The position numbers and the translations under genes were made by a program. Under the pieces are notes generated by a model. That model had not been told where the DNA came from. It saw only the letters and a list, made by a program, of their open reading frames with translations, and searched no databases. Below, piece after piece: positions 5,532 through 64,000 of a DNA stretch of 64,000 nt. Source of the stretch: Isoetes taiwanensis (Eukaryota; Streptophyta; Lycopodiopsida; Isoetales; Isoetaceae); assembly GCA_021234155.1 (NCBI GenBank), contig JAJEKV010000096.1, positions 1,682,010 through 1,746,009 on the forward strand, read 5' to 3'. Position 1 is the first letter of the stretch, and each line of letters begins with the position of its first letter.

Positions 5532-5715
5532 GAGACCCTTTTCTGTGTCAAGTCATTTCATGGTGTGGCATATTGCTCCTACTTTGAGTCCAAGCTCATG
5601 ATCGGAGATGCTAGAGTGGATGAAGTTGTTAAGAAAATCCGATGTTGCATAGGGATGATCAGCATCAAACTTATATACATATATTACAGAGTGAAAAGAA
5701 GGAGCGTTCTAGAAC

Positions 5716-22797: not shown

Positions 22798-22799
22798 TG

Positions 22800-43097: not shown

Positions 43098-43470
43098 AAA
43101 TAAACAAGAGTAGGGCGGTGAGCTTGGACCCGAACACCTAGTCTTCTCCACTCAAGGCGGGAGCCGACCATGCCCTTTGTCCAAGTCTCCCCAAATTTTT
43201 CTAAACTAAATACATTAATCAATAAAATTTCAAGAGTAAACGGTGAGCTTGGACTCGGAACACCTAGTCTTCTCCACTCAAGGCGGAGCCGACCATGCCC
43301 TTGTCCAAGTCTCCCCAATTTTTTCTAAACTAAATACATTAATCAATAAAATTACAAGAGTAAACGGTGAGCTTGGACCCGGAACACCTAGTCTTCTCCA
43401 CTCAAGGCGGAGCCGACCATGCCCTTGTCCAAGTCTCCCCAAGTTTTTTTTTAACCTAAATAAAACATTA
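43098..43470. repeat. 125-bp minisatellite, three copies
   Basis: Core ggtgagcttggacccggaac recurs with periods 125 and 124 bp (agctt at 43,121, 43,246 and 43,370). Each copy also carries aaggcggagccgaccatgcc and tttctaaactaaatacatta. The array ends about 40 bp before the start of the 7.67-kb array. Confidence 0.9.
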
Positions 43471-43511
43471 AAATTTTATTCTCCTACTCAAACTCAAATT
43501 CTTACCTAGAA

Positions 43512-46500
43512 TGACTGAAGTTGACAATGCAGCAAAAAATATGACGAAGATTATTGATAAAGAGGAGATGCTCTTTCCGATTGGTACTAACTTCTTTGAC
43601 AAAAGATGCCAGAACAACAAGGGATTGACCATCTTTGTTAAAGCACATATGGGATACAAAGATGTTGAAAGAAATTATTCTTATATCCACCGTATATGGA
43701 GAAGCTTCAGTCCATATTTCAAATGTAATTGTCAAGCATGTGCTGATACTATCACTTGGTTCGATCAAGCCGTCTGCACGCGGCTTAATCACCTTGAGCG
43801 TGTCTATCCCGTATACACAAGCTGGACGGATAGGGTCATTTATATACTTTATACAACAACATCCGAAACGACTGTCATGGCTAAACCGGTCTACATGCGT
43901 GTCGAAATGCTTATTAAAATTACGAACAAACCGGCCTCAAACCCACAATGTGATCTCAAGGCAGCCTTTGGTGACACTAAGCTAGTTGATGTATGCGGTG
44001 ATGCTAAAAGACAAGAAATTTGTGGACAAGAAGTTCAAGAACAACAATAACGAACACCGCTACTTCATATCGGACAAATAAATCCACTTATGGCGTTGAG
44101 TGTTTTCGCCACCAAGAGTAGCAAGGTCGGATGAGATCTATCCTCCAAGGCAAATGATAGCATTATCAATCTATCGATTCTATAGTGGCATGTTCCCCGG
44201 GAGAACTTCGGTGAATAAAGGGGACAAACCCGAAGGTCTACACAAGTATCCGGTGGAGAAACCGTAACGTCTTCTTTAATGACAAGATTGATTTCGGATC
44301 TCATCCGATATGACATGACATTGGTCCTTGGACTATGGCATGCTATCCCCGCCTTTAGCGGAAGACACTATCCGGGCCCACCGATTGCCCATAGTGTTCC
44401 AAAAACATGAAATTCCAAAAAAATATATCTACTTAAAATAGTCACGCTAATATCTTTGAATGATACTTTTTGGTTACGGGCATAATGTTGATTTTGATCA
44501 ATACCGTGATGATCTCTACAAACCGCTTTAAGAATGTCATGCGCAATGCTTGATAAGGCTATACAAAGTGGTTTTAGAGAAGAATCTATATTCATGATAT
44601 ATTAGTCTTAATTACGTGTGCCTACAATGTTATCACCGATATCATCGACATTTTAATCTTGAATAAGCTCCGTGTCTCGTAGCATAACAAGAGAAAATTG
44701 GTAAATGAAGGTGATCACTTCAAATACCCATGCGAGATAAGGACACGCATAAAATCACATAATGCTACAATAATTGAAGATGAACTAATGCATCTAAGAT
44801 GTGGAGATAACTTTATGAAAATAATCTGAGCAAGAAAGAAGCCGCGAGTTTAATATTACAAGCTCAAAGATAATCAGATTTGGTGATCCAATCAGGCATG
44901 AATTTTATAGTTAAATTCCAATCAATAGATTCTCGCTATGATGGAAATTAAACACATGCAAGTATAATAATAAGGAGAATGCAATCATCTCCTGCACCCA
45001 CCGGCAACGAGTCAATATCGAAATGGATATTTACGCAGATCTATGGCAGCTTGTAAGATTGGAAAGTACATAAATACATGGTTATAAGTCCTGGTCAGAA
45101 AGTTTATGCCCATGTATATGTTTAGGGCTATTCTTAACCAAAGAGGGAACATACTCCAAGATGATGCAAGAAGGAACAAGGAAACGATTTAAAGCCAATA
45201 TTGTGTCTGCATGTTTTATAGCATGTTATTTGGCTAAGAAAGAGCTTAACATTCAGACCCGGTGTTACGTGAAGGGTGTACGGTACATACTTTCTCATCA
45301 CAGTCTGCATTCAATTAAAGCTCAAGAAAACAATGAAAATCGGATTGATTATATAAATGCAATACCCGTATGTGGGATTCTCTATGCAATGCCCGCTTTG
45401 CATGTTCTTATTTTTCTGAGAACTAGCTGCAACAACGGTTCAATGCTAACCGCAGTGGCATTATGTGCGTGAGGAAGAAAAAGTGGAAAAGGTGAGAACG
45501 ATTACACGCAATTGAATGGGCACAAAGTACTATGTAATAGAAGATATGAAAAAGAAGTAAGATCGATACATTTTCGGTTTCTTTCAAAGTTGATGGATAA
45601 GATAGATATAAAGTCCATGATAAAAGAATACATGATTATAAGACTGGGAGACTATGGGGAAACTATGATGAAGGACAATTGGATTTGGATGGAAATACTC
45701 CAAGTCTCTTGTTGATTATATGTATAAGCCATATGGCATATTTGCGGTGAAGAAGTGCCTAAATGTGTCTGGCTGTGCACCGGCATGGCAAGGTTTATAG
45801 ATGCAAATGTCGGCCATGTAAGGACTATGGATATGAACATTATTAAATCTAGAGAACTACGGAATATGTTCTATAAAGGCCTAAACTTTATTCCTGACAA
45901 ACCCTTGGATATTGAGGAGTTTATGGCAGATATGGATAAAGGCCTGGAGTATATGTTTGAAAGACATGCAGGCAGAGGCAGATACTTACATCCATTGGAA
46001 AAAGAAGGGATAAAAAAAAGTGCTCGAGAATAATTAAGAAAAAAGGCCAAGACCAAATAAAAGAGCATAAGAAAACCAAATGTGCCTTTTATGATATCAA
46101 AGTCGAAAAAAACCATGGATTGGCTGGTTAAAAACCTCTATATAGCAGGAGTGGATAAAGCGGCAAACGTGCCCTCTTTTATTTGCCCATGGCACATTAG
46201 AGACATGGCGAGGCAGAGACTGCAAGGCCCTGACTTTGAAAGATCCAAAATAAAAAAGGTAGAGCTGCAAATTCAGCTAAATGGGAGCCTGCTTCAAGAG
46301 TTCAATCTGGATTGTCCGTGATAAAGATAGGCTACCCTACCTATTGGGAACCTTCAAAGCCCACAAAGGAGAATACCGGGATCACTAATGCCAACCGACT
46401 ATTTTCACACTCCCCGCTAAGCTTGTCTCTAGAGGACTTAGAGGCATTTTAGATGTTCTGCCAAAAGCTTACATGGAAAAATTGAGTAAATTAAATGTGC

Positions 46501-47540
46501 TCTTGCCAGGCAAGGTAAACCCATTTTGGATGGTAAACTCCATGTATGAAGTGATGCTAAATCTGCCTACAAAAATACATGACATTTATACGGCAGATAT
46601 TGCAAAATGCTACGAGAATATACCAATTGATGGTGAAAATGGTGTATGCAAAATCATGAGCATGATTATAGAATGGGCAGTGGCTTATATGAGCGGTAAT
46701 AGTGATAAATGTAAACTTTGGTACAAGATTGTAGATGACGAGGTAGTGGCTACATGGGGACCAAAAAGCCAGGAAGGTAATGCATGGCAAAGCATGGAAT
46801 ACTCACAATTCTATGAACTGAATGTTTGGTTGCTACAGAGATGCTATCTGATTCAAGGGGATAATGTATGGAGACAAAAATGTGGGATTCCAATGGGGTT
46901 CTCATGCTCCCCAGAATGGTGTAACATATATTTGTCATACTTTGAATTTACATTCATTGAAAAGTTAGCATATCATGGCAGATATCAGGATATAGGAAGA
47001 TTTAAAGATGCGAGGAGATTCATGGATGACTTGTTCATCCCAAATGGTGGCTGTCTGGATGAATTTTTTCAAAAAGACAGAAGTTGTAAGGACAGCTGGA
47101 ACATATACAATCTCGATGTGCTTCAAATAAAAGATGAAACCGTATATTCACAGCTTAAAGATGGATCTAAGGGTGCTGGTTTTAGAGGCAACTTTCTAAA
47201 TGTGACTTTCGAAATATTGGACCATAACACAGGACTGTTTCAGACCAGTAGATATGACAAGAGAAAGAAACTTCCCTTTCAAACTATAAAGTTCATCCAC
47301 GCAACGAGCTCTAGACCATACTTGAATGCAAGCAGGGTGATTATTTCACAAGTCCTGCCTTATGTATATGCCCATTCGAGTCCCGTGGAGGCAGCTAAGG
47401 ATATAAATGGTCTGATTGAGGACTTTACAAAGAATGGGTTCCACAGGGATGATCTGATAGAAAATGTCATAAGAATGATAAATTATGAGAAATTTCCAGG
47501 CTTGGTTTATGATGTAAAGATGATTCTAGGCTACTTGTAA
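43512..47540 (+). pseudogene. Penelope/rvt-like RT gene, copy 0, 5'-truncated
   Basis: This copy lacks exon 1, the intron and the first ~234 codons of exon 2. The remainder runs from VDNAAKNMTKIIDKEEML to the RT end. The RT catalytic part (46,473-47,540, 355 codons) is open and has all motifs: YTADIAKCYENIP, CGIPMGFSCSPEWCNIYL and RRFMDDLF. Between 43,740 and 46,400 many CAG/CTG-linked indels break the frame. In several places this copy is open where copy 1 is not: 45,161-45,472 reads 103 codons, and 44,260-44,390 continues the frame past the stop that ends copy 1's first ORF. Without a promoter or 5' part it is presumably silent. Confidence 0.85.
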
Positions 47541-47557
47541 GTAGTAAAACTTCGTGT

Positions 47558-47638
47558 GTAGGATAGTAGGACCCTTCTTTTCATAGGAAGGGTCCTGCAT
47601 CCTACTGTGCATCAATCGATGCATCCTATGAAAAGAAG
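47558..47638 (+). terminator. Stem-loop cluster after copy 0
   Basis: Same hairpin set as described at 55,230-55,310, here 18 bases after the RT stop codon. Confidence 0.6.
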
Positions 47639-48071
47639 TGTCGTACTACCCGAGGGAGGGTCGAGGCCAAGAAAGAAGAAGAAGAAGAAGAAGAAGATAG
47701 GATAACTGAGACTTTGTGAAAGACCTAAACTATGCAAGCAGAATGGGCTTATGGGAATAATATGAGCATAATTCCAAGGTTTTGTATCTTCTATACCTAG
47801 AATTATTATTTTGATGTATGGAAAGCCTATTTTATATTTTATATCTTTAAAAGTTGTTTTGACCTATGGTTTTCTTTTATAATTTGTGGGACTACTAAAT
47901 AAGTTTAAGAATTTGAATGTATTTCTCTTAAGTTAAATTTTTACTGACCCTCATAATCTTTGTGGCATAAAAAGAAGGCTGGCATATGCCTATGCTGATG
48001 ACGGATCTAAAAAGCTAAAGGGTCAAGCATTTATATACTGCGAATTTCAAGATCGATTTGTGATTTAGGGC

Positions 48072-48436
48072 ATGGTAGCAGGGATAATAAGTGAGGAGCC
48101 TCAGCCGAACTCATTAAATATGAAGACCACCGAGCAAGATACTTTTGACCACGGCATTATTTTGCCAGGCGGGAAAGCTTACGAGAAAATCGTAGACTTG
48201 AACTTAGAAGCAAAACTAACACTAAGGTTTGTTGAAGAGGAACGCTTGGCGCTGATATCTCAAAGTCTGCAATATGCCGAGGGGTGTGTATGAACGAATA
48301 CCTGGAAAGAACAAGAAAGCTCAGAATCTTTGGAAACTACCCATCAAGAAAATTTGGGAAAGCGAATTCTGGAAGCAAATTCATCAGCACAAGAGATCAA
48401 AACAAGCCAAACGGCGGAGGGAGCGCTCAAATACAG
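48072..48436 (+). CDS. Exon 1 of copy 1
   Basis: A frame starts at ATG 48,072 (good context, gggcATGG) and runs 73 codons (MVAGIISEEPQPNSLNMKTT...). It ends at a TGA that overlaps a second ATG at 48,274. The second frame (MPRGVYERIPGKNKK...) runs to a donor ATACAG/GTTCCC at 48,436 in phase 0. Either one base is off near the CTG at about 48,266 and the two form one exon of about 120 codons, or the first is an upstream ORF overlapping the true start. In this copy an extra shift (ctcagaatctttggaaac against ctccgaatgctggaaac in copy 2) breaks the second frame. Confidence 0.5.
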
Positions 48437-51400
48437 GTTCCCCTACATGTCACAGTGATTTAAAACTTAATTTAGCCTCCTGTATTTTTTTAGTACGTTT
48501 TTGAAAGTGGGCTTAAGTAGAAGACGTTGCCTTTCTTGTATGCTAGAAACACGTGGTATTTTTGTAACTTGTTTTGGTGGAAAGTCGGATCTGTGGCCGG
48601 TGCAAAAAGGAGAATAAGAGGCCATTGCTATTTGTATTCAGAGCTATCATGCCACGGTTGTTCAGAATATATAACATACTTATGCATGCATTCCTTTATC
48701 TGAACATAGGCCGCTTTAATGTCTTTCATCTATGGCGTTTTCCAAGTCAGCCATGGTTTGAACAATGTCCGCTTTAATACCTTTTTTCTATTGCTTTTTC
48801 TATGGTAGCCCTGTACATCTTTTATGTCACTACTTTTACATCTTTAAAGCCAGCTACTTTTGAAGAAAAGATCAAGGTTGCTTCTTTGAAACATACTTGC
48901 TACATGATGGCATATTATATAGTAGTTGATAGGCCTGCTACAGTTTAGTCTAGGCTGATCCAAAAAAGGTGCTTGTAACATATCGGGGAACAGGGTTTAA
49001 TCTGAGCTCTATGAATGATACATGTGTATGATTAGAGTTCTAGTTAATTCTTGAATGTCATAGTTTGATTGGCATCTTAGTTGTATACTGGCAGGTTTAA
49101 GATACAAAGGCTCATATGCCTAGGTGGATAAAGTAAAAGGTAATAGTGCTGGAAATACATTCTAGATGCATGTCTACATCTGCTACTGCATTATATTCTT
49201 GCTCATAAGATGCATGAAACTAAAATTTGGCCCCTGATATAAGGACTAGAATTTGGTCCTTGCTGATATACGGTAACATAGATTGATTTCTAAGTTATGA
49301 TTAGGGATGTAAATAATTAGTTCTTGGAATGGTTATGGTATGCTTAGGATAATTCTGTTTTGGTGGAAATATCCTAGTTTATAGCATTTAACCCAAGAGG
49401 TGAAGGGCGAAGAGCCATGTAGTTTCAATGCTTACCTGACGCCCCTTACATAGTTACCGGATGCTAACTTTTGTAATGCTTGGGTGCAGGTAACCGAAAC
49501 TACATCTCCTTGATGTTTGGTTCAAATGCTTGTATGTACAAAGCTACTTAATGATGCTGCTTTCTTGGACTGCTATGGTACAAGGACATGAAGCAGTATA
49601 TATGGTATGACCTTTCCAAAGGAAACCACAAGAACAAAGAGTTATGGAGTATTTGGTTAAGTTTGTACAAAGATAATGCAGTGTCTCTTGAAGCAGCAGT
49701 ATTTTATAAGATATAGGATTACTTATATTTGTTAGTTTAAGTTTAAAGGAGGATCAAGATAAACATTTGACTGATATACATGTAATTGAGCTGGAACAAA
49801 AATGAATGATACTATATTTAATATGACTCTTATTCCTACAAATTAGACAGCGTAAATGAAAATTTTACATGAAACAACTCTGATATAGCAGCGTGCATAA
49901 ATGGAAGTTATTTTAAACAATTAGACATGACTATTATTATAGCATCTCAGCCTTTTGACTCTTCTTCCTGTAAACCAGATTTGTTAAATATTTGTTAAAT
50001 AATTGATCATAATGTAAATCTGTCCTATATGTTCCAGATTATTAGTATAAACAATATGACTGATATATTACATCGTAGATTTATGTCTTTCTTGATTATC
50101 AAAATAGACAATAGAGGCTCAATAGAACTTATTAGTGTGGCCTGGGTAACGCCAGGATGGATATGTGTTGCGTTTTCTTTGCCATGAATGAATGCGGTAT
50201 AATATGATGTATTCACATTTAACTGTTAGTAATCCTGGCAAAGAAGTGTTGAAGAAGAAATCGAGACTTCCATTTGCTGGAGATATCCGGCATGCACACT
50301 AGTTTGGTTCTGCCTCGTAATTAATTTGAACCAAATTTGCTCAGCTGACATGGACCTGTCATTGCTGTGTTCTTCTGTTTAATTTTTAAAGGCTAATCTC
50401 TCCTGCGATTGTCTTGTTATATATTTGGATACAAAAAACGTATAATGACTCTCTGGTATCTGGTTACAGAAAAAGAATGTTTGGAATAATCAGCTGGTGG
50501 ACCTTGGATATGGAGACTTGGGAGAGGCACCAAACATGGCTGTCCAGTCAATCTTCTGTCTAATCCCCACCAGGGAGATACATGCATTTATTATTGCAAA
50601 AGTGAAAGATCTCCCTCCAAATGCATTCTCTCCCGTCAACCATCTTGGCTTTAGCACATGGATGGAGATATTTCAGAAATTGGATGATAAGAAAATGGCT
50701 GTAAATGAATGCTTAGGCATCATAGATCAAGTATTTGCGGAGACACAAGAAGTGCTGGCAGACAGAACTGATATGGACGATGTTCTGGCCCTGGAATTCA
50801 AGCTTGGTGTTACACACTTGGAAAAGGTACATGAACTTACTGATGTTACCTTTGAAGCACAGGGTGTTACTCCAAACAATACTGTTTTTGAGGGGCAGGC
50901 AACACAAGGTTTAGCTAGTTATATCCCTCAGGTGGACTTGGACTTAATGAAGAAAGAAAGTGAGGCCAATATAGAAAAGTTAAGCATGGGCGATACTATG
51001 AGGCTTACTTTGCAAAACTGTATCAGATTCCCCATTATCTCAGAAATGGCTATTGAATGGTTAGGGGAAGAATTCGCACAAGGTCTATGGCGCAGCCAGA
51101 ACTATAGCACTCTAGCCCCAATCAGTAAAAAAGCATGGATTTTTATGGCTGGTTTAACAGTGGAGGAATTGACTGAAGTTGACAATGCAGCAAAAAATAT
51201 GACGAAGATTATTGATAAAGAGGAGATGCTCTTTCCGATTGGTACTAACTTCTTTGACAAAAGATGCCAGAACAACAAGGGATTGACCATCTTTGTTAAA
51301 GCACATATGGGATACAAAGATGTTGAAAGAAATTATTCTTATATCCACCGTATATGGAGAAGCTTCAGTCCATATTTCAAATGTAATTGTCAAGCATGTG

Positions 51401-54400
51401 CTGATACTATCACTTGGTTCGATCAAGCTGTCTGGTACGTGCTTAATCACCTTGAGCAGGTCTATCCCAGGTATACACAAGCTGGACGGATAGGGTCATT
51501 TATATACTTTATACAGCAACATCTGAAACGACCTGTCATGGCGCAACTGGTCTACATGCAGGTCAGGGAAATGCTTATTAAAATTACGAACAAACTGGCC
51601 TCAAACCCACAATGTGATCTCAAGGCAGCCTTTGGTGACACTAAGCTAGTTGATGTATGCGAAGTGATGCTAAAAGACAAGAAATTTGTGGACAAGAAGT
51701 TCAAGAACAACAATAACGAACCTGCTACTTCATATCAGACAAATAAATCCACTTATGGCAGTGAGTGTTTTCTGCCACCAAGAGTAGCAAGGTCGGCAGT
51801 AGATCTATCCTCCAAGGCAAATGATAGCATTATCAATCTATCAGATTCTATAGTGGCATGTTCCCCTGGGGAGAACTCAGTGAATAAAGGGGACAAACCT
51901 GAAGGTCTACACAAGTATCTGGTGGAGAAACCAGAACGTCTTCTTTACTGACAGTACTTCAGATCTCATCTGATATGACATGACATTGGTCCTTGGACTA
52001 TGGCATGCTATCCTGCCTTAGGCGGAAGACACTATCTGGGCCCACTGATTGCCCATAGTGTTCCAAAAAACATGAAATTCCAAAAAAAAGTATATCTACT
52101 TAAAATAGTCGCTGCTAATATGCTGAATGATACTTTTTGGTTACAGGCATAATGCTGATTTTGATCAATACTGTGATGATCTCTACAAACTGTTTAAGAA
52201 TGTCATGCGCAGTACTTGATAAGGCTATACAAAGTGGTTTTTAGAGAAGAATCTATATTCATGATATATTAGTCTTAATTCTGTGCCTACAATGTTATAC
52301 CGATATCATCAGACTGTTTAATACTGAATAAGCTCTGTGTCTCAGAGCATAACAGTAGAAAATTGGTAAATGAAGGTGATCACTTCAAATACCCATGCAG
52401 TATAAGGACACGCATAAAATCACATACGTTACAATAACCGAAGATGAACTAATGCATCTAAGATGTGGAGATAACTTTATGAAAATAATCTGAGCAAGAA
52501 AGAAGCTGCAGTTTAATATTACAAGCTCAGCATAATCAGATTTGGTGATCCAATCAGGCATGAATTTTATAGTTAAATTCCAATCAATAGATTCTGCTAT
52601 GATGGAAATTAAACACATGCAAGTATAATAATAAGGAGAATGCAATCATCTCTGTACCCACCTGGCAACGAGTCAATATCAGAAATGGATATTTACGCAG
52701 TATCTATGGCAGCTTGTAAGATTGGAAAGTACATAAATACATGGTTATAAGTCTGGGCTGTAAAGTTTATGCCCATGTATATGTTTAGGGCTATTCTTAA
52801 CCAAAGAGGGAACATACTCCAGCATGATGCAAGAAGGAACAAGGAAACGATTTAAAGCCAATATTGTGTCTGCATGTTTATAGCATGTTATTTGGCTAAG
52901 AAAGAGCTTAACATTCAGACCCGGTGTTACAGGAAGGGTGTACGGTACATACTTTCTCATCACAGGTCTGCATTCAATTAAAGCTCAGTAAAACAATGAA
53001 AATCGGATTGATTATATAAATGCAATACCCGTATTTGGGATTCTCTATGCAATGCCCGCTTTGCATGTTCTTATTTTTCTGAGAACTAGCTGCAACAACG
53101 GTTCAATGCTAACTGCAGTGGCATTATGTGCAGGAGGAAGAAAAAGTGGAAAAGGTGAGAACGATTACACGCAATTCGAATGGGCACAAAGTACTATGTA
53201 ATAGAAGATATGAAAAAAGAAGTAAGATCAGGATACATTTTCAGTTTCTTTCAAAGTTGATGGATAAGATAGATATAAAGTCCATGATAAAAGAATACAT
53301 GATTATAAGACTGGGAGACTATGGGGAAACTATGATGAAGGACACTGGATTTGGATGGAAATACTCCAAGTCTCTTGTTGATTATATGTATAAGCCATAT
53401 GGCATATTTGCAGCTGAAGAAGTGCCTAAATGTGTCTGTCAGGCACCGGGCATGGCAAGGTTTATAGATGCAAATGTCGGCCATGTAAGGACTATGGATA
53501 TGAACATTATTAAATCTAGAGAACTACGGAATATGTTCTATAAAGGCCTAAACTTTATTCCTGACAAACCCTTGGATATTGAGGAGTTTATGGCAGATAT
53601 GGATAAAGGCCTGGAGTATATGTTTGAAAGACATGCAGGCAGAGGCAGATACTTACATCCATTGGAAAAAGAAGGGATAAAAAAAAGTGCTCTGAGAATA
53701 ATTAAGAAAAAGGCCGAAGACCAAATAAAAGAGCATAAGAAAACCAAATGTGCCTTTTATGATATCAAAGTCAGAAAAGCCATGGATTGGCTGGTTAAAA
53801 ACCTCTATATAGCAGGAGTGGATAAAGCGGCAAACGTGCCCTCTTTTATTTGCCCATGGCACATTAGAGACATGGCGAGGCAGAGACTGCAAGGCCCTGA
53901 CTTTGAAAGATCCAAAATAAAAAAGGTAGAGCTGCAAATTCAGCTAAATGGGAGCCCACTTCAAGAGTTCAATCTGGATTGTCCGTATAAAGATAGGCTA
54001 CCCTACCTATTGGGAACCTTCAAAGCCCACAAAGGAGAATACCGGTGGATCACTAATGCCAACCGGACTATTTTCACACTCCCCGCTAAGCTTGTCTCTA
54101 GAGGACTTAGAGGCATTTTAGATGTTCTGCCAAAAGCTTACATGGAAAAATTGAGTAAATTAAATGTGCTCTTGCCAGGCAAGGTAAACCCATTTTGGAT
54201 GGTAAACTCCATGTATGAAGTGATGCTAAATCTGCCTACAAAAATACATGACATTTATACGGCAGATATTGCAAAATGCTACGAGAATATACCAATTGAT
54301 GGTGAAAATGGTGTATGCAAAATCATGAGCATGATTATAGAATGGGCAGTGGCTTATATGAGCGGTAATAGTGATAAATGTAAACTTTGGTACAAGATTG

Positions 54401-55212
54401 TAGATGACGAGGTAGTGGCTACATGGGGACCAAAAAGCCAGGAAGGTAATGCATGGCAAAGCATGGAATACTCACAATTCTATGAACCCCAATGTTTGGT
54501 TGCTACTGAGAGATGCTATCTGATTCAAGGGGATAATGTATGGAGACAAAAATGTGGGATTCCAATGGGGTTCTCATGCTCCCCAGAATGGTGTAACATA
54601 TATTTGTCATACTTTGAATTTACATTCATTGAAAAGTTAGCATATCATGGCAGATATCAGGATATAGGAAGATTTAAAGATGCGAGGAGATTCATGGATG
54701 ACTTGTTCATCCCAAATGGTGGCTGTCTGGATGAATTTTTTCAAAAAGACAGAAGTTGTAAGGACAGCTGGAACATATACAATCTCGATGTGCTTCAAAT
54801 AAAAGATGAAACCGTATATTCACAGCTTAAAGATGGATCTAAGGGTGCTGGTTTTAGAGGCAACTTTCTAAATGTGACTTTCGAAATATTGGACCATAAC
54901 ACAGGACTGTTTCAGACCAGTAGATATGACAAGAGAAAGAAACTTCCCTTTCAAACTATAAAGTTCATCCACGCAACGAGCTGTAGACCATACTTGAATG
55001 CAAGCAGGGTGATTATTTCACAAGTCCTGCCTTATGTATATGCCCATTCGAGTCCCGTGGAGGCAGCTAAGGATATAAATGGTCTGATTGAGGACTTTAC
55101 AAAGAATGGGTTCCACAGGGATGATCTGATAGAAAATGTCATAAGAATGATAAATTATGAGAAATTTCCAGGCTTGGTTTATGATGTAAAGATGATTCTA
55201 GGCTACTTGTAA
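48072..55212 (+). CDS. Penelope/rvt-like giant RT gene, copy 1 (full length)
   Basis: Proposed model: exon 1 48,072-48,436, intron 48,437-50,469, exon 2 50,470-55,212. This would give a protein of roughly 1,700 residues: an N-terminal unknown region of more than 800 residues, then reverse transcriptase. Reverse transcriptases of this group copy RNA into DNA; Penelope-like elements prime at DNA ends or nicks. Known Penelope-like elements often retain introns, occur in head-to-tail tandem with a truncated leading copy, and may lack the GIY-YIG nuclease, all as here. The related rvt genes are cellular genes with large N-terminal extensions, so that reading is also open. Frame breaks in exon 2 (51,952-53,128) sit at CAG/CTG sites and are probably consensus errors. 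Confidence 0.7.
48437..50469 (+). other. Intron of about 2.03 kb
   Basis: Starts GTTCCCCTAC and ends ATCTGGTTACAG, with an ATAATGAC branch-point-like sequence about 30 bases before the end. Both borders are in phase 0. Inside are only short frames. The tract is AT-rich and nearly identical to the next copy (56,117-58,143), so it was duplicated with the gene. Confidence 0.55.
50470..51951 (+). CDS. Exon 2, N-terminal unknown region (copy 1)
   Basis: About 493 codons are open from the acceptor, reading KKNVWNNQLVDLGYGDLGEA onward. No domain is recognised. Visible features: a Cys cluster FKCNCQACADTITWFDQA (codon triplets near 51,376-51,430, C-x-C-x2-C), aromatic-rich helices such as RIGSFIYFIQQHLKRPVM, and a basic stretch KDKKFVDKKFKNNNNEP near 51,670-51,720. 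The last 60 residues are rich in Ser/Asn. The stop at 51,949 is preceded by CTG/CAG sites at which the three copies differ, and reading resumes in the same frame after it (DIGPWTMACYPALGGRHYLG). Confidence 0.6.
   Translation, partial: KKNVWNNQLVDLGYGDLGEAPNMAVQSIFCLIPTREIHAFIIAKVKDLPPNAFSPVNHLGFSTWMEIFQKLDDKKMAVNECLGIIDQVFAETQEVLADRTDMDDVLALEFKLGVTHLEKVHELTDVTFEAQGVTPNNTVFEGQATQGLASYIPQVDLDLMKKESEANIEKLSMGDTMRLTLQNCIRFPIISEMAIEWLGEEFAQGLWRSQNYSTLAPISKKAWIFMAGLTVEELTEVDNAAKNMTKIIDKEEMLFPIGTNFFDKRCQNNKGLTIFVKAHMGYKDVERNYSYIHRIWRSFSPYFKCNCQACADTITWFDQAVWYVLNHLEQVYPRYTQAGRIGSFIYFIQQHLKRPVMAQLVYMQVREMLIKITNKLASNPQCDLKAAFGDTKLVDVCEVMLKDKKFVDKKFKNNNNEPATSYQTNKSTYGSECFLPPRVARSAVDLSSKANDSIINLSDSIVACSPGENSVNKGDKPEGLHKYLVEKPERLLY
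51952..53127 (+). CDS. Exon 2, middle region with frame breaks (copy 1)
   Basis: Between the two long frames, protein-like stretches follow one another in changing frames: GPLIAHSVPKNMKFQKKVYL with LKIVAANMLNDTFWLQ (to about 52,145), HNADFDQYCDDLYKLFKNVM (to about 52,210), LIRLYKVVFREESIF, SSDCLILNKLCVSEHNSRKL, ITYVTITEDELMHLRCGDNF, NESISEMDIYAVSMAACKIG and LGLFLTKEGTYSSMMQEGTR. Most frame switches fall at CAG or CTG. Copies 0 and 2 carry other lengths at the same places and are open where this copy is not, for example 45,161-45,472 in copy 0. It is therefore read as one damaged-in-assembly coding region, not an intergenic gap. Confidence 0.55.
53128..55212 (+). CDS. Exon 2, reverse transcriptase region (copy 1)
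   Basis: An open frame of 694 codons. Order: VRTMDMNIIKS and YKGLNFIPDKP (120-147), the pre-RT signature of Penelope-like and rvt proteins; a basic coiled stretch (180-220); LPYLLGTFKAHKGEYRWITN (291-310, motifs 1-2); IYTADIAKCYENIP (376-389, motif A, Asp380); CGIPMGFSCSPEWCNIYL (476-493, motif B); RRFMDDLF (520-527, motif C, Asp524-Asp525); GLFQTSRYDKRKKLPF (593-608, primer-grip region); then a thumb-like segment to a clean stop. All three catalytic Asp are present. No GIY-YIG nuclease follows. The track's first codon is GTG-type and the true frame extends upstream. Confidence 0.92.
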   Translation: MQEEEKVEKVRTITRNSNGHKVLCNRRYEKRSKIRIHFQFLSKLMDKIDIKSMIKEYMIIRLGDYGETMMKDTGFGWKYSKSLVDYMYKPYGIFAAEEVPKCVCQAPGMARFIDANVGHVRTMDMNIIKSRELRNMFYKGLNFIPDKPLDIEEFMADMDKGLEYMFERHAGRGRYLHPLEKEGIKKSALRIIKKKAEDQIKEHKKTKCAFYDIKVRKAMDWLVKNLYIAGVDKAANVPSFICPWHIRDMARQRLQGPDFERSKIKKVELQIQLNGSPLQEFNLDCPYKDRLPYLLGTFKAHKGEYRWITNANRTIFTLPAKLVSRGLRGILDVLPKAYMEKLSKLNVLLPGKVNPFWMVNSMYEVMLNLPTKIHDIYTADIAKCYENIPIDGENGVCKIMSMIIEWAVAYMSGNSDKCKLWYKIVDDEVVATWGPKSQEGNAWQSMEYSQFYEPQCLVATERCYLIQGDNVWRQKCGIPMGFSCSPEWCNIYLSYFEFTFIEKLAYHGRYQDIGRFKDARRFMDDLFIPNGGCLDEFFQKDRSCKDSWNIYNLDVLQIKDETVYSQLKDGSKGAGFRGNFLNVTFEILDHNTGLFQTSRYDKRKKLPFQTIKFIHATSCRPYLNASRVIISQVLPYVYAHSSPVEAAKDINGLIEDFTKNGFHRDDLIENVIRMINYEKFPGLVYDVKMILGYL

Positions 55213-55229
55213 GTAGTAAAACTTCGTGT

Positions 55230-55310
55230 GTAGGATAGTAGGACCCTTCTTTTCATAGGAAGGGTCCTGCATCCTACTGTGCATCAATCGATGCATCCTA
55301 TGAAAAGAAG
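55230..55310 (+). terminator. Competing stem-loops just after the RT stop (copy 1)
   Basis: Hairpin I: GTAGGAT-agta-GGACCCTT pairs with AAGGGTCC-tgc-ATCCTAC (55,230-55,277). Hairpin II: CTTCTTTTCATAGGA (55,246-55,260) pairs perfectly with TCCTATGAAAAGAAG (55,296-55,310). They share bases and exclude each other. A third small palindrome, tgcatcaatcgatgca, lies in the loop. The set is 18 bases after the stop and identical in all copies. It may act in RNA 3'-end formation or template recognition; the call as terminator is a guess. Confidence 0.5.
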
Positions 55311-55340
55311 TGTCGTACTACCCGAGGGAGGGTCGTGGGC

Positions 55341-55378
55341 GAAGAAGAAGAAGAAGAAGAAGAAGAAGAAGAAGAAGA
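55341..55378. repeat. (GAA)n microsatellite
   Basis: Follows each hairpin set. Lengths differ between copies (about 47,671-47,696, 55,341-55,378 and 63,023-63,050), as expected for slippage. Confidence 0.85.
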
Positions 55379-55752
55379 TAGGATAACTGAGACTTTGTGA
55401 AAGACCTAAACTATGCAAGCAGAATGGGCTTATGGGAATAATATGAGCATAATTCCAAGGTTTTGTATCTTCTATACCTAGAATTATTATTTTGATGTAT
55501 GGAAAGCCTATTTTATATTTTATATCTTTAAAAGTTGTTTTGACCTATGGTTTTCTTTTATAATTTGTGGGACTACTAAATAAGTTTAAGAATTTGAATG
55601 TATTTCTCTTAAGTTAAATTTTTACTGACCCTCATAATCTTTGTGGCATAAAAAGAAGGCTGGCATATGCCTATGCTGATGACGGATCTAAAAAGCTAAA
55701 GGGTCAAGCATTTATATACTGCGAATTTCAAGATCGATTTGTGATTTAGGGC

Positions 55753-58700
55753 ATGGTAGCAGGGATAATAAGTGAGGAGCCTCAGCCGAACTCATTAAAT
55801 ATGAAGACCACCGAGCAAGATACTTTTGACCACGGCATTATTTTGCCAGGCGGGAAAGCTTACGAGAAAATCGTAGACTTGAACTTAGAAGCAAAACTAA
55901 CACTAAGGTTTGTTGAAGAGGAACGCTTGGCGCTGATATCTCAAAGTCTGCAATATGCCGAGGGGTGTGTATGAACGAATACCTGGAAAGAACAAGAAAG
56001 CTCCGAATGCTGGAAACTACCCATCAAGAAAATTTGGGAAAGCGAATTCTGGAAGCAAATTCATCAGCACAAGAGATCAAAACAAGCCAAACGGCGGAGG
56101 GAGCGCTCAAATACAGGTTCCCCTACATGTCACAGTGATTTAAAACTTAATTTAGCCTCCTGTATTTTTTTAGTACGTTTTTGAAAGTGGGCTTAAGTAG
56201 AAGACGTTGCCTTTCTTGTATGCTAGAAACACGTGGTATTTTTGTAACTTGTTTTGGTGGAAAGCTGGATACAGGTCGGTGCACAAAAGGAGAATAAGAG
56301 GCCATTGCTATTTGTATTCAGAGCTATCATGCCACGGTTGTTCAGAATATATAACATACTTATGCATGCATTCCTTTATCTGAACATAGGCCGCTTTAAT
56401 GTCTTTCATCTATGGCGTTTTCCAAGTCAGCCATGGTTTGAACAATGTCCGCTTTAATACCTTTTTTCTACTGCTTTTTCTATGGTAGCCTGTACATCTT
56501 TTATGTCAGCTACTTTTACATCTTTAAAGCCAGCTACTTTTGAAGAAAAGATCAAGGTTGCTTACTGAAACATACTTGCTACATGATGGCATATTATATA
56601 GTAGTTGATAGGCCTGCTACAGTTTAGTCTAGGCTGATCCAAAAAAGGTGCTTGTAACATATCGGGGAACAGGGTTTAATCTGAGCTCTATGAATGATAC
56701 ATGTGTATGATTAGAGTTCTAGTTAATTCTTGAATGTCATAGTTTGATTGGCATCTTAGTTGTATACTGGCAGGTTTAAGATACAAAGGCTCATATGCCT
56801 AGGTGGATAAAGTAAAAGGTAATAGTGCTGGAAATACATTCTAGATGCATGTCTACATCTGCTACGGCATTATATTCTTGCTCATAAGATGCATGAAACT
56901 AAAATTTGGCCCCTGATATAAGGACTAGAATTTGGTCCTTGCTGATATACGGTAACATAGATTGATTTCTAAGTTATGATTAGGGATGTAAATAATTAGT
57001 TCTTGGAATGGTTATGGTATGCTTAGGATAATTCTGTTTTGGTGGAAATATCCTAGTTTATAGCATTTAACCCAAGAGGTGAAGGGCGAAGAGCCATGTA
57101 GTTTCAATGCTTACCTGACGCCCCTTACATAGTTACCGGATGCTAACTTTTGTAATGCTTGGGTGCAGGTAACCGAAACTACATCTCCTTGATGTTTGGT
57201 TCAAATGCTTGTATGTACAAAGCTACTTAATGATGCTGCTTTCTTGGACTGCTATGGTACAAGGACATGAAGCAGTATATATGGTATGACCTTTCCAAAG
57301 GAAACCACAAGAACAAAGAGTTATGGAGTATTTGGTTAAGTTTGTACAAAGATAATGCAGTGTCTCTTGAAGCAGCAGTATTTTATAAGATATAGGATTA
57401 CTTATATTTGTTAGTTTAAGTTTAAAGGAGGATCAAGATAAACATTTGACTGATATACATGTAATTGAGCTGGAACAAAAATGAATGATACTATATTTAA
57501 TATGACTCTTATTCCTACAAATTAGACAGCGTAAATGAAAATTTTACATGAAACAACTCTGATATATCAGCGTGCATAAATGGAAGTTATTTTAAACAAT
57601 TAGACATGACTATTATTATAGCATCTCAGCCTTTTGACTCTTCTTCCTGTAAACCAGATTTGTTAAATATTTGTTAAATAATTGATCATAATGTAAATCT
57701 GTCCTATATGTTCCAGATTATTAGTATAAACAATATGACTGATATATTACATCGTAGATTTATGTCTTTCTTGATTATCAAAATAGACAATAGAGGCTCA
57801 ATAGAACTTATTAGTGTGGCCTGGGTAACGCCAGGATGGATATGTGTTGCGTTTTCTTTGCCATGAATGAATGCGGTATAATATGATGTATTCACATTTA
57901 ACTGTTAGTAATCCCGGCAAGAAGTGTTGAAGAAGAAATCGAGACTTCCATTTGCTGGAGATATCCGCATGCACACTAGTTTGGTTCTGCCTCGTAATTA
58001 ATTTGAACCAAATTTGCTCGGTGACATGGACCCATCATTCTTTGTGTTCTTCTTTAATTTTTAAAGGCTAATCTCTCCTGCGATTGTCTTGTTATATATT
58101 TGGATACAAAAACGTATAATGACTCTCTCGTATCCGGTTCTGTAAAAAGAATGTTTGGAATAATCACCGGTGGACCTTGGATATGGAGACTTGGGAGAGG
58201 CACCAAACATGGCTGTCCAAATAATCTTCTGTCTAATCCCCACCAGGAGATACATGCATTTATTATTGCAAAAGTGAAAGATCTCCCTCCAAATGCATTC
58301 TCTCCCGTCAACCATCTTGGCTTTAGCACATGGATGGAGATATTTCAAAATTGGATGATAAGAAAATGGTCAGTAAATGAATGCTTAGGCATCATAGATC
58401 AAGTATTTGCGGAGACACAAGAAGTCTTTGGCGCATTTAACCGATATGGACGATGTTCGCCCGGAATTCAAGCTTGGTGTTACACACTTGGAAAAGGTAC
58501 ATGAACTTACTGATGTTACCTTTGAAGCCGCGGGTGTTACTCCAAACAATACTGTTTTTGAGGGGCAGGCAACACAAGGTTTAGCTAGTTATATCCCTCG
58601 GTGGACTTGGACTTAATGAAGAAAGAAAGTGAGGCCAATATAGAAAAGTTAAGCATGGGCGATACTATGAGGCTTACTTTGCAAAACAGATCAGATTCCC

Positions 58701-61700
58701 CATTATCTCAGAAATGGCTATTGAATGGTTAGGGGAAGAATTCACAAGGTCTATGGCGCAGCCAGAACTATAGCACTCTAGCCCCAATCAAGTAAAAAGC
58801 ATGGATTTTTATGGCTGGTTTAACAGTGGAGGAATTGACTGAAGTTGACAATGCAGCAAAAAATATGACGAAGATTATTGATAAAGAGGAGATGCTCTTT
58901 CCGATTGGTACTAACTTCTTTGACAAAAGATGCCGAACAACAAGGGATTGACCATCTTTGTTAAAAGCACATATGGGATACAAAGATGTTGAAAGAAATT
59001 ATTCTTATATCCACCGTGATATGGAGAAGCTTCAGTCCATATTTCAAATGTAATTGTCAAGCATGTGCCGATACTATCACTTGGTTCGATCAAGTCGTCT
59101 GGTACGCGTGCTTAATCACCTTGAGCGTGGTCTATCCCAGTATACACAAGCTGGACGGATAGGGTCATTTATATACTTTATACACAGAACATCTGAAACG
59201 ACACTGTCATGGCAGCAACCTGGTCTACATGCGGTCGGGAAATGCTTATTAAAATTACGAACAAACCGGCCTCAAACCCACAATGTGATCTCAAGGCAGC
59301 CTTTGGTGACACTAAGCTAGTTGATGTATCTTGAAGTGATGCTAAAAGACAAGAAATTTGTGGACAAGAAGTTCAAGAACAACAATAACGAACCTGCTAC
59401 TTCATATCGGACAAATAAATCCACTTATGGCGTTGAGTGTTTTACGCCACCAAGAGTAGCAAGGTCGGCAAGAGATCTATCCTCCAAGGCAAATGATAGC
59501 ATTATCAATCTATCGATTCTATAGTGGCATGTTCCCCAGGGGAGAACTTCGGTGAATAAAGGGGACAAACCTGAAGGTCTACACAAGTATCCGTGGAGAA
59601 ACCAGAACGTCTTCTTTACTGACAAACTTCAGATCTCATCCGATATGACATGACATTGGTCCTTGGACTATGGCATGCTATCCCCTTAAGTAGGCGAAGA
59701 CACTATCTGGGCCCACCGATTGCCCATAGTGTTCCAAAAACATGAAATTCCAAAAAAAAAAGTATATCTACTTAAAATAGTCGCCGCTAATATCTTTGAA
59801 TGATACTTTTTGGTTACGTGCATAATGCTGATTTTGATCAATACTGTGATGATCTCTACAAACCGTTTAAGAATGTCATGCGCGATTACTTGATAAGGCT
59901 ATACAAAGTGGTTTTTAGAGAAGAATCTATATTCATGATATATTAGTCTTAATTCTATGCCTACAATGTTATACCGATATCATCGACTGTTTAATCTTGA
60001 ATAAGCTCTGTGTCTCAGAGCATAACAAAGAGAAAATTGGTAAATGAAGGTGATCACTTCAAATACCCATGCAAAGATAAGGACACGCATAAAATCACAT
60101 ACGTTACAATAACCGAAGATGAACTAATGCATCTAAGATGTGGAGATAACTTTATGAAAATAATCTGAGCAAGAAAGAAGCTGCAGTTTAATATTACAAG
60201 CTCAAAGATAATCGATTTGGTGATCCAATCAGCATGAATTTTATAGTTAAATTCCAATCAATAGATTCTGCTATGATGGAAATTAAACACATGCAAGTAT
60301 AATAATAAGGAGAATGCAATCATCTCTGTACCCACACCGCAACGAGTCAATATCGAAATGGATATTTACGCAGAGATCTATGGCAGCTTTGTAAGATTGG
60401 AAAGTACATAAATACATGGTTATAAGTCCGGGTCAGAAAGTTTATGCCCATGTATATGTTTAGGGCTATTCTTAACCAAAGAGGGAACATACTCCAAAGA
60501 TGATGCAAGAAGGAACAAGGAAACGATTTAAAGCCAATATTGTGTCTGCATGTTTATAGCATGTTATTTGGCTAAGAAAGAGCTTAACATTCAGACCGGT
60601 GTTACAGGAAGGGTGTACGGTACATACTTTCTCATCACAGTGCGCATTCAATTAAAGCTCAAGAAAACAATGAAAATCGGATTGATTATATAAATGCAAT
60701 ACCCGTATTTGGGATTCTCTATGCAATGCCCGCTTTGCATGTTCTTATTTTTCCTCGAGAACTAGCTGCAACAACGGTTCAATGCTAACTGCAGGTGGCA
60801 TTATGTGCGGGAGGAAGAAAAAGTGGAAAAGGTGAGAACGATTACACGCAATTCGAATGGGCACAAAGTACTATGTAATAGAAGATATGAAAAAGAAGTA
60901 AGATCGATACATTTTCGGTTTCTTTCAAAGTTGATGGATAAGATAGATATAAAGTCCATGATAAAAGAATACATGATTATAAGACCGAGGGAGACTATGG
61001 GGAAACTATGATGAGGACACTTGGATTTGGATGGAAATACTCCAAGTCTCTTGTTGATTATATGTATAAGCCATATGGCATATTTGCAAAAATTGAAGAA
61101 GTGCCTAAATGTGTCTCATCGGGCACCGGGCATGGCAAGGTTTATAGATGCAAATGTCGGCCATGTAAGGACTATGGATATGAACATTATTAAATCTAGA
61201 GAACTACGGAATATGTTCTATAAAGGCCTAAACTTTATTCCTGACAAACCCTTGGATATTGAGGAGTTTATGGCAGATATGGATAAAGGCCTGGAGTATA
61301 TGTTTGAAAGACATGCAGGCAGAGGCAGATACTTACATCCATTGGAAAAAGAAGGGATAAAAAAAAGTGCTCTGAGAATAATTAAGAAAAAGGCCGAAGA
61401 CCAAATAAAAGAGCATAAGAAAACCAAATGTGCCTTTTATGATATCAAAGTCAGAAAAGCCATGGATTGGCTGGTTAAAAACCTCTATATAGCAGGAGTG
61501 GATAAAGCGGCAAACGTGCCCTCTTTTATTTGCCCATGGCACATTAGAGACATGGCGAGGCAGAGACTGCAAGGCCCTGACTTTGAAAGATCCAAAATAA
61601 AAAAGGTAGAGCTGCAAATTCAGCTAAATGGGAGCCTGCTTCAAGAGTTCAATCTGGATTGTCCGTATAAAGATAGGCTACCCTACCTATTGGGAACCTT

Positions 61701-62893
61701 CAAAGCCCACAAAGGAGAATACCGGTGGATCACTAATGCCAACCGGACTATTTTCACACTCCCCGCTAAGCTTGTCTCTAGAGGACTTAGAGGCATTTTA
61801 GATGTTCTTGCCAAAAGCTTACATGGAAAAATTGAGTAAATTAAATGTGCTCTTGCCAGGCAAGGTAAACCCATTTTGGATGGTAAACTCCATGTATGAA
61901 GTGATGCTAAATCTGCCTACAAAAATACATGACATTTATACGGCAGATATTGCAAAATGCTACGAGAATATACCAATTGATGGTGAAAATGGTGTATGCA
62001 AAATCATGAGCATGATTATAGAATGGGCAGTGGCTTATATGAGCGGTAATAGTGATAAATGTAAACTTTGGTACAAGATTGTAGATGACGAGGTAGTGGC
62101 TACATGGGGACCAAAAAGCCAGGAAGGTAATGCATGGCAAAGCATGGAATACTCACAATTCTATGAACTGAATGTTTGGTTGCTACAGAGATGCTATCTG
62201 ATTCAAGGGGATAATGTATGGAGACAAAAATGTGGGATTCCAATGGGGTTCTCATGCTCCCCAGAATGGTGTAACATATATTTGTCATACTTTGAATTTA
62301 CATTCATTGAAAAGTTAGCATATCATGGCGTATATCGTGATATAGGAAGATTTAAAGATGCGAGGAGATTCATGGATGACTTGTTCATCCCAAATGGTGG
62401 TCGCCCCGGATGAATTTTTTCAAAAAAAGACGTAAGTTGTAAGGACAAATGAACATATACAATCTCGATGTGCTTCAAATAAAAGATGAAACCGTGATAT
62501 TCACAAATTAAAGATGGATCTAAGGGTGCTTGGTTTTAGAGGCAACTTTCTAAATGTGACTTTCAAATATTGGACCATAACACGACCTGTTTCGCACCCA
62601 GATAGATATGACAAGAGAAAGAAACTTCCCTTTCAAACTATAAAGTTCATCCACGCAACGAGTCAGACCATACTTGAATGCAAGCAGGTGATTATTTCAC
62701 AAGTCCCGCCTTATGTATATGCCCATTCGAAAGTCCCGTGGAGGCAAATAAGGATATAAATGGTCCGATTGAGGACTTTACAAAGAATGGGTTCCACAGG
62801 GATGATCTGATAGAAAATGTCATAAGAATGATAAATTATGAGAAATTTCCAGGCTTGGTTTATGATGTAAAGATGATTCTAGGCTACTTGTAA
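55753..62893 (+). CDS. Penelope/rvt-like giant RT gene, copy 2
   Basis: Same model as copy 1: exon 1 55,753-56,116 (the second frame, from 55,955, is open to the donor here), intron 56,117-58,143, exon 2 58,144-62,893. The acceptor reads GTTCTGT in place of GTTACAG, another CAG-site difference. Exon 2 is riddled with shifts at CAG/CTG sites at 58,350-61,130 and 62,330-62,760. The central stretch 61,021-62,400 is clean: 272 codons before, and 203 codons after, a one-base difference at 61,808 (gatgttcttgcc against gatgttctgcc). Catalytic motifs A, B and C are all present. If the shifts are sequencing artefacts the gene is as intact as copy 1. Confidence 0.65.
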
Positions 62894-62910
62894 GTAGTAA
62901 AACTTCGTGT

Positions 62911-62991
62911 GTAGGATAGTAGGACCCTTCTTTTCATAGGAAGGGTCCTGCATCCTACTGTGCATCAATCGATGCATCCTATGAAAAGAAG
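62911..62991 (+). terminator. Stem-loop cluster after copy 2
   Basis: Identical to the set at 55,230-55,310. Confidence 0.6.
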
Positions 62992-63424
62992 TGTCGTACT
63001 ACCCGAGGGAGGGTCGTAGGCGAAGAAGAAGAAGAAGAAGAAGAAGAAGATAGGATAACTGAGACTTTGTGAAAGACCTAAACTATGCAAGCAGAATGGG
63101 CTTATGGGAATAATATGAGCATAATTCCAAGGTTTTGTATCTTCTATACCTAGAATTATTATTTTGATGTATGGAAAGCCTATTTTATATTTTATATCTT
63201 TAAAAGTTGTTTTGACCTATGGTTTTCTTTTATAATTTGTGGGACTACTAAATAAGTTTAAGAATTTGAATGTATTTCTCTTAAGTTAAATTTTTACTGA
63301 CCCTCATAATCTTTGTGGCATAAAAAGAAGGCTGGCATATGCCTATGCTGATGACGGATCTAAAAAGCTAAAGGGTCAAGCATTTATATACTGCGAATTT
63401 CAAGATCGATTTGTGATTTAGGGC

Positions 63425-64000
63425 ATGGTAGCAGGGATAATAAGTGAGGAGCCTCAGCCGAACTCATTAAATATGAAGACCACCGAGCAAGATACTTTTG
63501 ACCACGGCATTATTTTGCCAGGCGGGAAAGCTTACGAGAAAATCGTAGACTTGAACTTAGAAGCAAAACTAACACTAAGGTTTGTTGAAGAGGAACGCTT
63601 GGCGCTGATATCTCAAAGTCTGCAATATGCCGAGGGGTGTGTATGAACGAATACCTGGAAAGAACAAGAAAGCTCCGAATGCTGGAAACTACCCATCAAG
63701 AAAATTTGGGAAAGCGAATTCTGGAAGCAAATTCATCAAAGACAAGAGATCAAAACAAGCCAAACGGGGGGGGAGCGCCAAATACAGGTTCCCCTACATG
63801 TCACAGTTGATTTAAAACTTAATTTAGCCTCCCGTATTTTTTTTTTAGTACGTTTTTGAAAGTGGGCTTAAGTAGAAGACGTTGCCTTTCTTGTATGCTA
63901 GAAACACGTGGTATTTTTGTAACTTGTTTTGGTGGAAAGCTGGATACAGGTCGGTGCACAAAAGGAGAATAAGAGGCCATTGCTATTTGTATTCAGAGCT
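63425..64000 (+). CDS. Penelope/rvt-like giant RT gene, copy 3 (start only)
   Basis: Exon 1 at 63,425-63,787 with the same overlapping frames, followed by the start of the intron. Changes near 63,735-63,785 (gacaagagatc, ggggggg) break the second frame. The rest lies beyond the window. Confidence 0.65.

Follow-up and report, generated by a model that had tools for sequence, protein, structure and literature searches.

A probable Penelope-type retrotransposon family lodged in GAA/TTC microsatellites of Isoetes taiwanensis

Units of the repeat array and their coding regions

The window analyzed here is a 64,000-nt stretch of Isoetes taiwanensis DNA (contig JAJEKV010000096.1, positions 1,682,010 to 1,746,009; G000:C1107:1682010-1746009), and the genome searched for relatives of its sequences comprises 1.66 Gb in 1110 contigs. 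With 66 matches to the chlorophyll a/b-binding family, one of them translating to an LHCB-type protein, and with TTTAGGG arrays, that genome has the marks of a land plant. From 43512 to past its right end, the window contains head-to-tail repeats of a 7.67-kb unit composed of a terminal repeat, a first open reading frame (ORF1), a reverse transcriptase (RT) frame, a structured RNA element, and a GAA tract, which we regard as a member of a retrotransposon family, probably of Penelope type. With 18 kb added on the right, the array consists of a 5'-truncated copy, three full units, a terminal repeat that runs to unit position 2562, and (GAA)12 (Table 1). The head-to-tail arrangement described in a sequence-only reading of this stretch is thus confirmed, as a truncated copy, two full units, and a third that begins in the window and is complete beyond it. 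The full units in the window are 96-97% identical, the terminal repeat being the most uniform part. Differences among the copies are patchy, with few across 1.2 kb of the repeat, whereas stretches of ORF1 and RT carry numerous insertions, deletions, and doublet changes; the pattern could stem from either assembly error or decay, and neither the identity of the copies nor the breaks in their frames should be over-read. A 124-bp minisatellite (43104-43475) lies immediately left of the truncated first copy, and a 440-codon open frame on the minus strand near the array start (41228-42550), kinase-like by eye, has no Pfam match.

The RT open frame (53113-55212, 699 codons) is uninterrupted only in copy 2, with frame breaks in copies 1 and 3. 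Motifs A, B, and C with their catalytic aspartates lie where the sequence-only reading had placed them, and the GLNFIP pre-RT signature that it cites for Penelope-like elements and rvt genes is present within KGLNFIP. A genome search with the window RT yielded at least 64 matches on 35 contigs, this being the scored part of 4579 first-look candidates; 45 of the 64 were free of stops, and the stop-free matches off the contig of the window were 52-75% identical to the window RT. Twenty of these loci (designated by L numbers) were fetched with their flanks and compared with the window copy, giving 21 loci in all. An alignment (A3) of 18 plant RT sequences and one outside relative, P0001, was made without L010, in which the RT is cut short, L023, and L025. 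The Pfam family RVT_1 was matched at an E value of ≤1 by 18 of the 19 members of A3, including the window RT (best E value, 2.8e-05), and a sequence search of PDB with the RT gave no meaningful match. A CxC motif precedes the RT as CVC or CIC in 17 of the 18 plant rows and as CAC in P0001, and is absent in L011. Ratios of nonsynonymous to synonymous substitution rates (dN/dS) for the RT were 0.05-0.12 in the 8 of 171 pairs with measurable dS, the others being saturated, a pattern that indicates purifying selection.

P0001 was the single RT relative found among 5.8 billion proteins. It is a 749-residue protein with 30% identity, encoded on a 4.4-kb ENA contig, and has the CxC and HVRT region in common with the plant RT, with no Pfam match at E≤1. 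No relative was found in the viral contigs, which were scanned with the RT, P0001, and alignments A1, A2, and A3, or in prokaryote genomes scanned with A3.

ORF1, typically about 495 codons long, lies upstream of the RT in 19 of the 20 fetched loci. It was intact and full length in 15 of the 20 and cut short in L012, L019, and L027; in L025 its start was not anchored. Genome-wide there were 88 ORF1 matches (87 of 3382 candidates scored), and 53 of the 64 RT matches had one within 6 kb upstream on the same strand, compared with 0 of 64 within 8 kb on the opposite strand. The alignment of 16 ORF1 sequences (A2), which includes the window and omits the three truncated loci as well as L023 and L025, gave a dN/dS of 0.05-0.12 for the 7 of 120 pairs with measurable dS, the remainder being saturated. 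All 13 ORF1 C termini inspected close with a stop of their own, preceded by ..LY, ..IY, ..MY, or ..LYG/N, and in the tail between a PPR motif and this stop the ratio of the proportions of nonsynonymous and synonymous differences (pN/pS) was 0.09-0.29 (9 pairs). Judged by these ratios, ORF1 is under purifying selection up to its own stop. Sequence searches of Pfam, NCBIfam, and PDB returned no match of note for ORF1, and the 5.8 billion proteins contained no relative of it.

Table 1. Features of the repeat array in the window (positions are those of the window)
Feature	Position	Strand	Remarks
5'-truncated first copy	43512..47697	+	Begins within ORF1; matches unit positions 3473-7672, 96.2%
Full unit (copy 2)	47698..55370	+	Terminal repeat, ORF1, RT, RNA element, GAA tract
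Second full unit	55379..63050	+	96.9% identical
Third full unit, start only	63051..64000	+	Complete past window, followed by terminal repeat to unit position 2562 and (GAA)12 (L043, L044)
Long terminal repeat (LTR)-like terminal repeat	47698..50259	+	Unit positions 1-2562; carries exon 1 and most of intron 1
Exon 1 MPRGVYERIPGK... of copy 2	48274..48436	+	Out of frame here; relatives have a phase-0 CAG/GT donor
Exon 1 of next copy	55955..56116	+	In frame, 54 codons
Conserved sequence at end of terminal repeat	50137..50259	+	Closes with GAAGAAGAA (50251-50259); putative start site of reverse transcription
Covarying hairpin with GNUA loop	50274..50298	+	Directly 3' of GAAGAAGAA in internal copies
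ORF1 exon	50470..51951	+	493 codons; own conserved stop; no known domain
RT exon	53134..55212	+	692 codons; phase-0 acceptor
Pre-RT motifs	KCVC 53428, GHVRT 53479, KGLNFIP 53542	+
RT motif A TADIAKCYENIP	54259-54294	+
RT motif B GIPMGFSCSPEW	54556-54591	+
RT motif C RRFMDDL	54685-54705	+
Structured RNA element behind RT stop	55226..55339	+
RNA element, first copy	47554..47667	+
RNA element, third copy	62907..63020	+
(GAA)12 tract	55341..55376	+	From RNA element to next terminal repeat; further GAA tracts at 47675-47695 and 63022-63048

Terminal repeats and insertion at GAA tracts

Direct repeats flank the ORF1-RT body in 18 of the 21 loci, with lengths of 1.8-2.8 kb (2.56 kb in the window) and identities of 93.6-99.0%; in L013, L025, and the window, the repeat pair belongs to a tandem copy. 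Between unlike elements (two pairs compared) the terminal repeat could be aligned only in pieces of 105-172 bp. The right repeat starts at or near the GAA tract behind the RT, and its end was seen in 11 loci, in 9 of which it stops 108-213 bp ahead of the ORF1 acceptor position, in a long (GAA)n in 8 loci and in a short one in L019. Internal copies carry GAAGAAGAA or a close variant at this repeat-end point, followed by a hairpin, whereas at the right end of an insertion the same point is occupied by 69-168 bases of GAA (six loci measured). A further locus, L042 (C985:9201800-9209800), contains non-autonomous relatives, namely tandem 3.1-kb units that lack an RT and in which ORF1 is reduced to about its first 38 residues, the RNA element being retained. 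Terminal direct repeats with defined ends, presence on many contigs, and non-autonomous derivatives identify the unit as a mobile element.

These observations bear on a choice that the sequence-only reading had left between a nuclease-less Penelope element and a multicopy rvt gene, rvt genes being cellular genes encoding an RT. Its description of a multicopy, nuclease-less, Penelope-type sequence with introns in a plant holds, and the rvt gene is the half of the choice to be dropped. Introns, intact frames, and purifying selection would suit a cellular gene, but the dispersal over many contigs, the terminal repeats with their defined ends, an empty site (described below), same-direction stacks, and the non-autonomous copies make this origin extremely improbable. 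According to PMC5718144, RT motifs 2 and 3 of rvt genes are separated by a large loop 2a; in the window RT, 74 residues separate the RWIT motif from the first catalytic aspartate.

A tract of at least five units precedes the terminal repeat in 17 of the 21 loci, always as GAA on the sense strand, whereas no locus has an upstream TTC tract of that length, even after extension (0 of 21). The remaining four loci (L009, L010, L011, and L023) have no upstream GAA tract that long in the fetched piece, and the one TTC tract of the window (39336-39353) lies outside the array. To the left of the GAA tract, 7 loci have the repeat end of another element, 4 have the RNA element belonging to a copy ahead, and 6 have other sequence. 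The RNA element followed by GAA was found at 238 sites genome-wide (at most 1 mismatch) and the reversed pattern at none. Among 100 such places listed, neighbors within 60 kb were on the same strand in 49 of 49 pairs, compared with 2 of 10 pairs farther apart, and RT neighbors within 60 kb agreed in 20 of 20 pairs; these counts are inflated by tandem duplication, yet they agree with a rule by which the strand of the GAA tract governs insertion. The upstream neighbor of L024 is 71% identical to L027 and 61% identical to L024 itself, which indicates that unlike families stack at GAA tracts. In the loci examined, the sense strand is the GAA strand and the GAA tails of other elements are used as well, so that stacks run in one direction. 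The sequence-only reading, in describing a tandemly amplified giant gene, had missed that the array is one case of a genome-wide siting at GAA tracts that include the tails of other elements.

The flanks of individual insertions are consistent with this rule. L018 and L019, whose RTs are 74% identical, have a common left flank of 1.18 kb at 95% identity up to the GAA tract and then differ; L022 and L027 likewise have 735 bp in common at 94%, up to the GAA tract. The L018/L019 flank is a very uniform dispersed repeat that ends at a GAA tract and serves as a landing site (e.g., C1103:3933315-3933434); its copies number 40 or more and are 98-100% identical. Three copies of this repeat were fetched. 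One of them, L047, runs through two GAA tracts and contains 252 bp identical to the right flank of L019; it thus matches both flanks of L019, which places the insertion of L019 between GAA tracts. The other two copies have different sequence after the tract, one of them being 85% like the right flank of L022 over 134 bp. Comparison of L019 with the empty site L047 revealed no target duplication, and a 42-bp spacer between the GAA tracts of L047 is missing in L019, having been either lost on insertion or variable between copies of the repeat. When right flanks were compared with known repeat starts, the start of the L024 repeat was matched in 2 of 10, by only 25-28 bp.

For the array in the window, there is close to an even chance that it grew by unequal exchange between terminal repeats, or by slippage between them during replication, with insertion accounting for stacking elsewhere. 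The 96-97% identity of its full units, the uniformity of the repeat, and the regular 3.1-kb arrays of L042 are what such a process would leave, although it does not join unlike families into stacks at GAA tracts, as seen in L024 with its upstream neighbor and in the left flanks. A link to telomeres was also considered and rejected: single TTTAGGG words occur in the window, and two or more tandem TTTAGGG units were found neither there nor in any of 47 loci, compared with 217 overlapping matches to TTTAGGG arrays elsewhere in the genome. Eighteen of the 20 fetched loci lie on contigs longer than 1 Mb, the ends of which are not proven chromosome ends.

A putative shared first exon and conserved RNA structures

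The terminal repeat carries a short, basic first exon with the consensus MPxGVYxRxPGKxxKA.., found by pattern in 16 of the 21 loci. A phase-0 CAG/GT donor closes it in 13 of these 16, and the other three, copy 2 of the window among them, have broken frames. Amino acid changes in exon 1 are fewer than silent ones (pN, 0.10-0.26; pS, 0.28-0.75; 4 pairs). Its conserved ATG at 48274 lies inside the open frame that starts at 48072 but in a different reading frame; the start at 48072, taken as that of the protein in the sequence-only reading, was not conserved in the seven loci compared. All 19 loci examined for the ORF1 exon have a candidate phase-0 AG acceptor there, as do 20 of 21 loci at the RT exon, with only a weak candidate in L023 and none in L025 with the anchor used. 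A phase-0 donor on exon 1 and phase-0 acceptors on both downstream exons suggest two proteins with a common N terminus, and the simplest reading is that the one basic first exon is spliced to either of two last exons. The predicted spliced proteins are ~550 and 750 residues long (547 and 746 in the window).

This arrangement replaces the giant gene first proposed for the locus, in which more than 800 codons of N-terminal protein were joined to the RT across a phase-0 intron. The acceptor of that intron survives as conserved sequence, with exon 1 rather than ORF1 as its likely partner, and the giant gene resolves into separate ORF1 and RT proteins, the short shared exon probably being spliced to both. 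The upstream 500-codon frame has its own stop in the relatives and is selected up to that stop. A single long protein, made by splicing out the ORF1 stop and joining ORF1 to the RT, is improbable and was set aside. Both exons are in phase 0, and a phase-0 GT follows the PPR motif in 14 of 16 ORF1 sequences, but a valine codon accounts for this GT, which L015 and L016 have lost; selection acts on the tail beyond it as far as the stop; and exon 1 offers an alternative donor.

All 21 loci have the structured RNA element, located in the 81-144 bases that separate (GAA)n from the RT stop or from the reading point used in its place. Its 21 pairs come from an RNAalifold consensus computed on the very 23 sequences in which they were counted and were formed in 96% of cells, compared with 39-56% in slid controls. 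Seven pairs were changed on both sides, a number reached by 6 of 500 shuffles, and the window copy folds at a z score of -6.4. In most copies the loop of the first hairpin pairs with a downstream segment in a further long helix, and therefore a pseudoknot is likely. A covariance model of the element gave three plus-strand matches in the window and one in L043, together with four weaker antisense matches; part of the input to the model was window sequence, and the matches therefore serve as locations and not as a test. The hairpin that follows GAAGAAGAA in internal copies has 7 pairs, which were formed in 100% of cells among 11 sequences (slid controls, 25-48%). Rfam detected no ribozyme at gathering scores in the window, and no hammerhead; a permissive search of 43000-64000 again found no hammerhead, its one weak antisense match (E value, 4.4) being to an unrelated family.

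Relation to known elements and proposed mechanism

The RT motifs, the CxC motif, the GHVRT...KGLNFIP region, the terminal repeats, the truncation, and the tail-like ends together suggest a place for the family among Penelope-like elements (PLEs), and it is probably an autonomous Penelope-type retrotransposon family that lacks a recognizable endonuclease and inserts in GAA/TTC microsatellites. No Pfam match to an integrase, protease, or RNase H was found in ORF1 or RT, the features of an LTR retrotransposon, and GIY-YIG gave no match at E≤1 in 16 ORF1 and 19 RT proteins (P0001 included), exon 1 lying outside this Pfam scan. The window does contain an isolated open frame with a GIY-YIG match over the cut-off (22606-22941, minus strand; E value, 2.6e-6), which was rejected as the nuclease of the element, being far away, on the other strand, and not linked to it. 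Elsewhere in the window, positions 1-22000 hold a tandem array with a spacing of ~2.6 kb and similar 41- to 45-bp minisatellites at 1082, 3689, 6293, 8927, 11543, 16789, and 19409; within it, a peptide at 5205-5552 (minus strand) is helicase-like by eye and has no Pfam match. Copia-type remains with gag and integrase matches lie at 28660-32257 between two 397-bp direct repeats that are 99% identical, and a fragment of an RT resembling those of long interspersed nuclear elements lies at 34428-35126 on the minus strand (RVT_1 E value, 6.3e-10).

Naiad/Chlamys elements of the green lineage have an N-terminal GIY-YIG domain, a CxC motif before the RT, and a bias toward microsatellites. The family described here resembles them in its CxC motif (KCVC), its insertion in microsatellites, and its pseudo-LTRs but differs in that no GIY-YIG was found, ORF1 is separate, and a shared exon is predicted to be spliced; it is filed in no named Penelope clade. 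HeT-A and TART are telomeric elements that stack upon one another. Terminons form another such group (PMC12477314), and the one-direction head-to-tail chains of these elements are alike to those described here, although the landing site here is a microsatellite and not a telomere. Canonical PLEs, such as Anolis Poseidon (PMC11167929) and the Adineta Penelope families (PMC3846280), have similar tandem or partial-tandem copies, pseudo-LTRs, a 5'-truncated upstream copy, a coding start within the repeat, and an internal start of reverse transcription, for which the present family offers a putative counterpart. They have one ORF with GIY-YIG, whereas two ORFs and no nuclease domain were found here. 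In the Anolis element, reverse transcription is reported to start internally and to require RNA downstream of the start site (PMC11167929); that element has a hammerhead ribozyme, in contrast to the absence of an Rfam ribozyme match, the predicted spliced exon 1, and the GAA target of the present family.

Endonuclease-deficient PLEs, which include Athena and fungal, protist, and plant forms, are tied to telomeres and said to prime from exposed DNA ends (PMC3846280); cases in Selaginella and conifers appear in PMC9033089 and PMC12477314. They likewise have no nuclease domain, and exposed-end priming on a short repeat would be the natural model for the family described here. They occur at chromosome ends with telomeric repeats, whereas no telomeric arrays accompany the GAA tracts in which the copies examined here lie. 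The titles and abstracts searched mention no GAA-targeted PLE with a second ORF, which is weak evidence of absence, as key PLE papers lay outside the search.

GAA tracts break easily. The unspliced transcript would serve as the template, and splicing of exon 1 to either phase-0 acceptor would give the ORF1 and RT proteins. At a broken or nicked GAA tract, the 3' end of the TTC strand could pair with the GAAGAAGAA lying inside the RNA and act as the primer for reverse transcription, with the microsatellite standing in for the telomere as an exposed-end primer. The block of repeat end, GAAGAAGAA, and hairpin may be the natural counterpart of the internal start described for the Anolis PLE (PMC11167929). 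The other end of the cDNA may be resolved at GAA too, in which case no target duplication would be needed, and each insertion, leaving GAA at both ends, would create new targets. We suggest tentatively that this is a nuclease-free retroelement that builds its own landing sites, GAAGAAGAA-primed insertions lengthening GAA tracts for the next element, possibly through telomerase-like repeated copying.

It is also conceivable, though somewhat doubtful, that ORF1 is the endonuclease, a new GAA-cutting fold that has taken the place of GIY-YIG in a two-protein PLE with a separated nuclease. The frequent company that ORF1 keeps with the RT, its comparable conservation, the sharp choice of target, and its invariant C, H, D, E, R, and K residues in A2, which include a CxC...C cluster, would fit such a role; the database searches gave no match of note, no active site can be named, and priming at breaks requires no nuclease.

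Several points weigh against a nuclease-free Penelope-type family targeting GAA tracts. The Penelope assignment is drawn from motifs and anatomy, the window RT scored 18.8 bits against RVT_1, below the cut-off of 29.6, and ORF1, for which the searches revealed no known relative beyond this genome, might be a nuclease in its own right. L010 and L023 have no repeat pair, the pair of L016 extends over just 697 bp at 84.5%, L023 has no ORF1, and the right repeat stops earlier in L014 and runs on in L027. The empty site is one case only, GAA tracts are slippage sites, so that tract length says little, and the near-identical array of the window could stem from recombination between repeats instead of new insertions. 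Both exon 1 splices are predicted from signals in the DNA, and for the hairpin 3' of GAAGAAGAA, its three pairs changed on both sides were reached by 22 of 500 shuffles and its number of pair types by 455 of 500.

If the proposed mechanism is correct, self-built landing in GAA would parallel telomere addition at interstitial sites, in an element that obtains two proteins by alternative splicing. Spliced RNA would yield the proteins, whereas the genomic copy would arise from unspliced RNA, which may be a reason why the introns are retained. With a short template, short conserved RNA elements, and defined junctions, the family would offer a system for testing priming on repeats. A large family using interstitial microsatellites would show an RT related to telomerase spreading within chromosomes without cutting DNA of its own accord.

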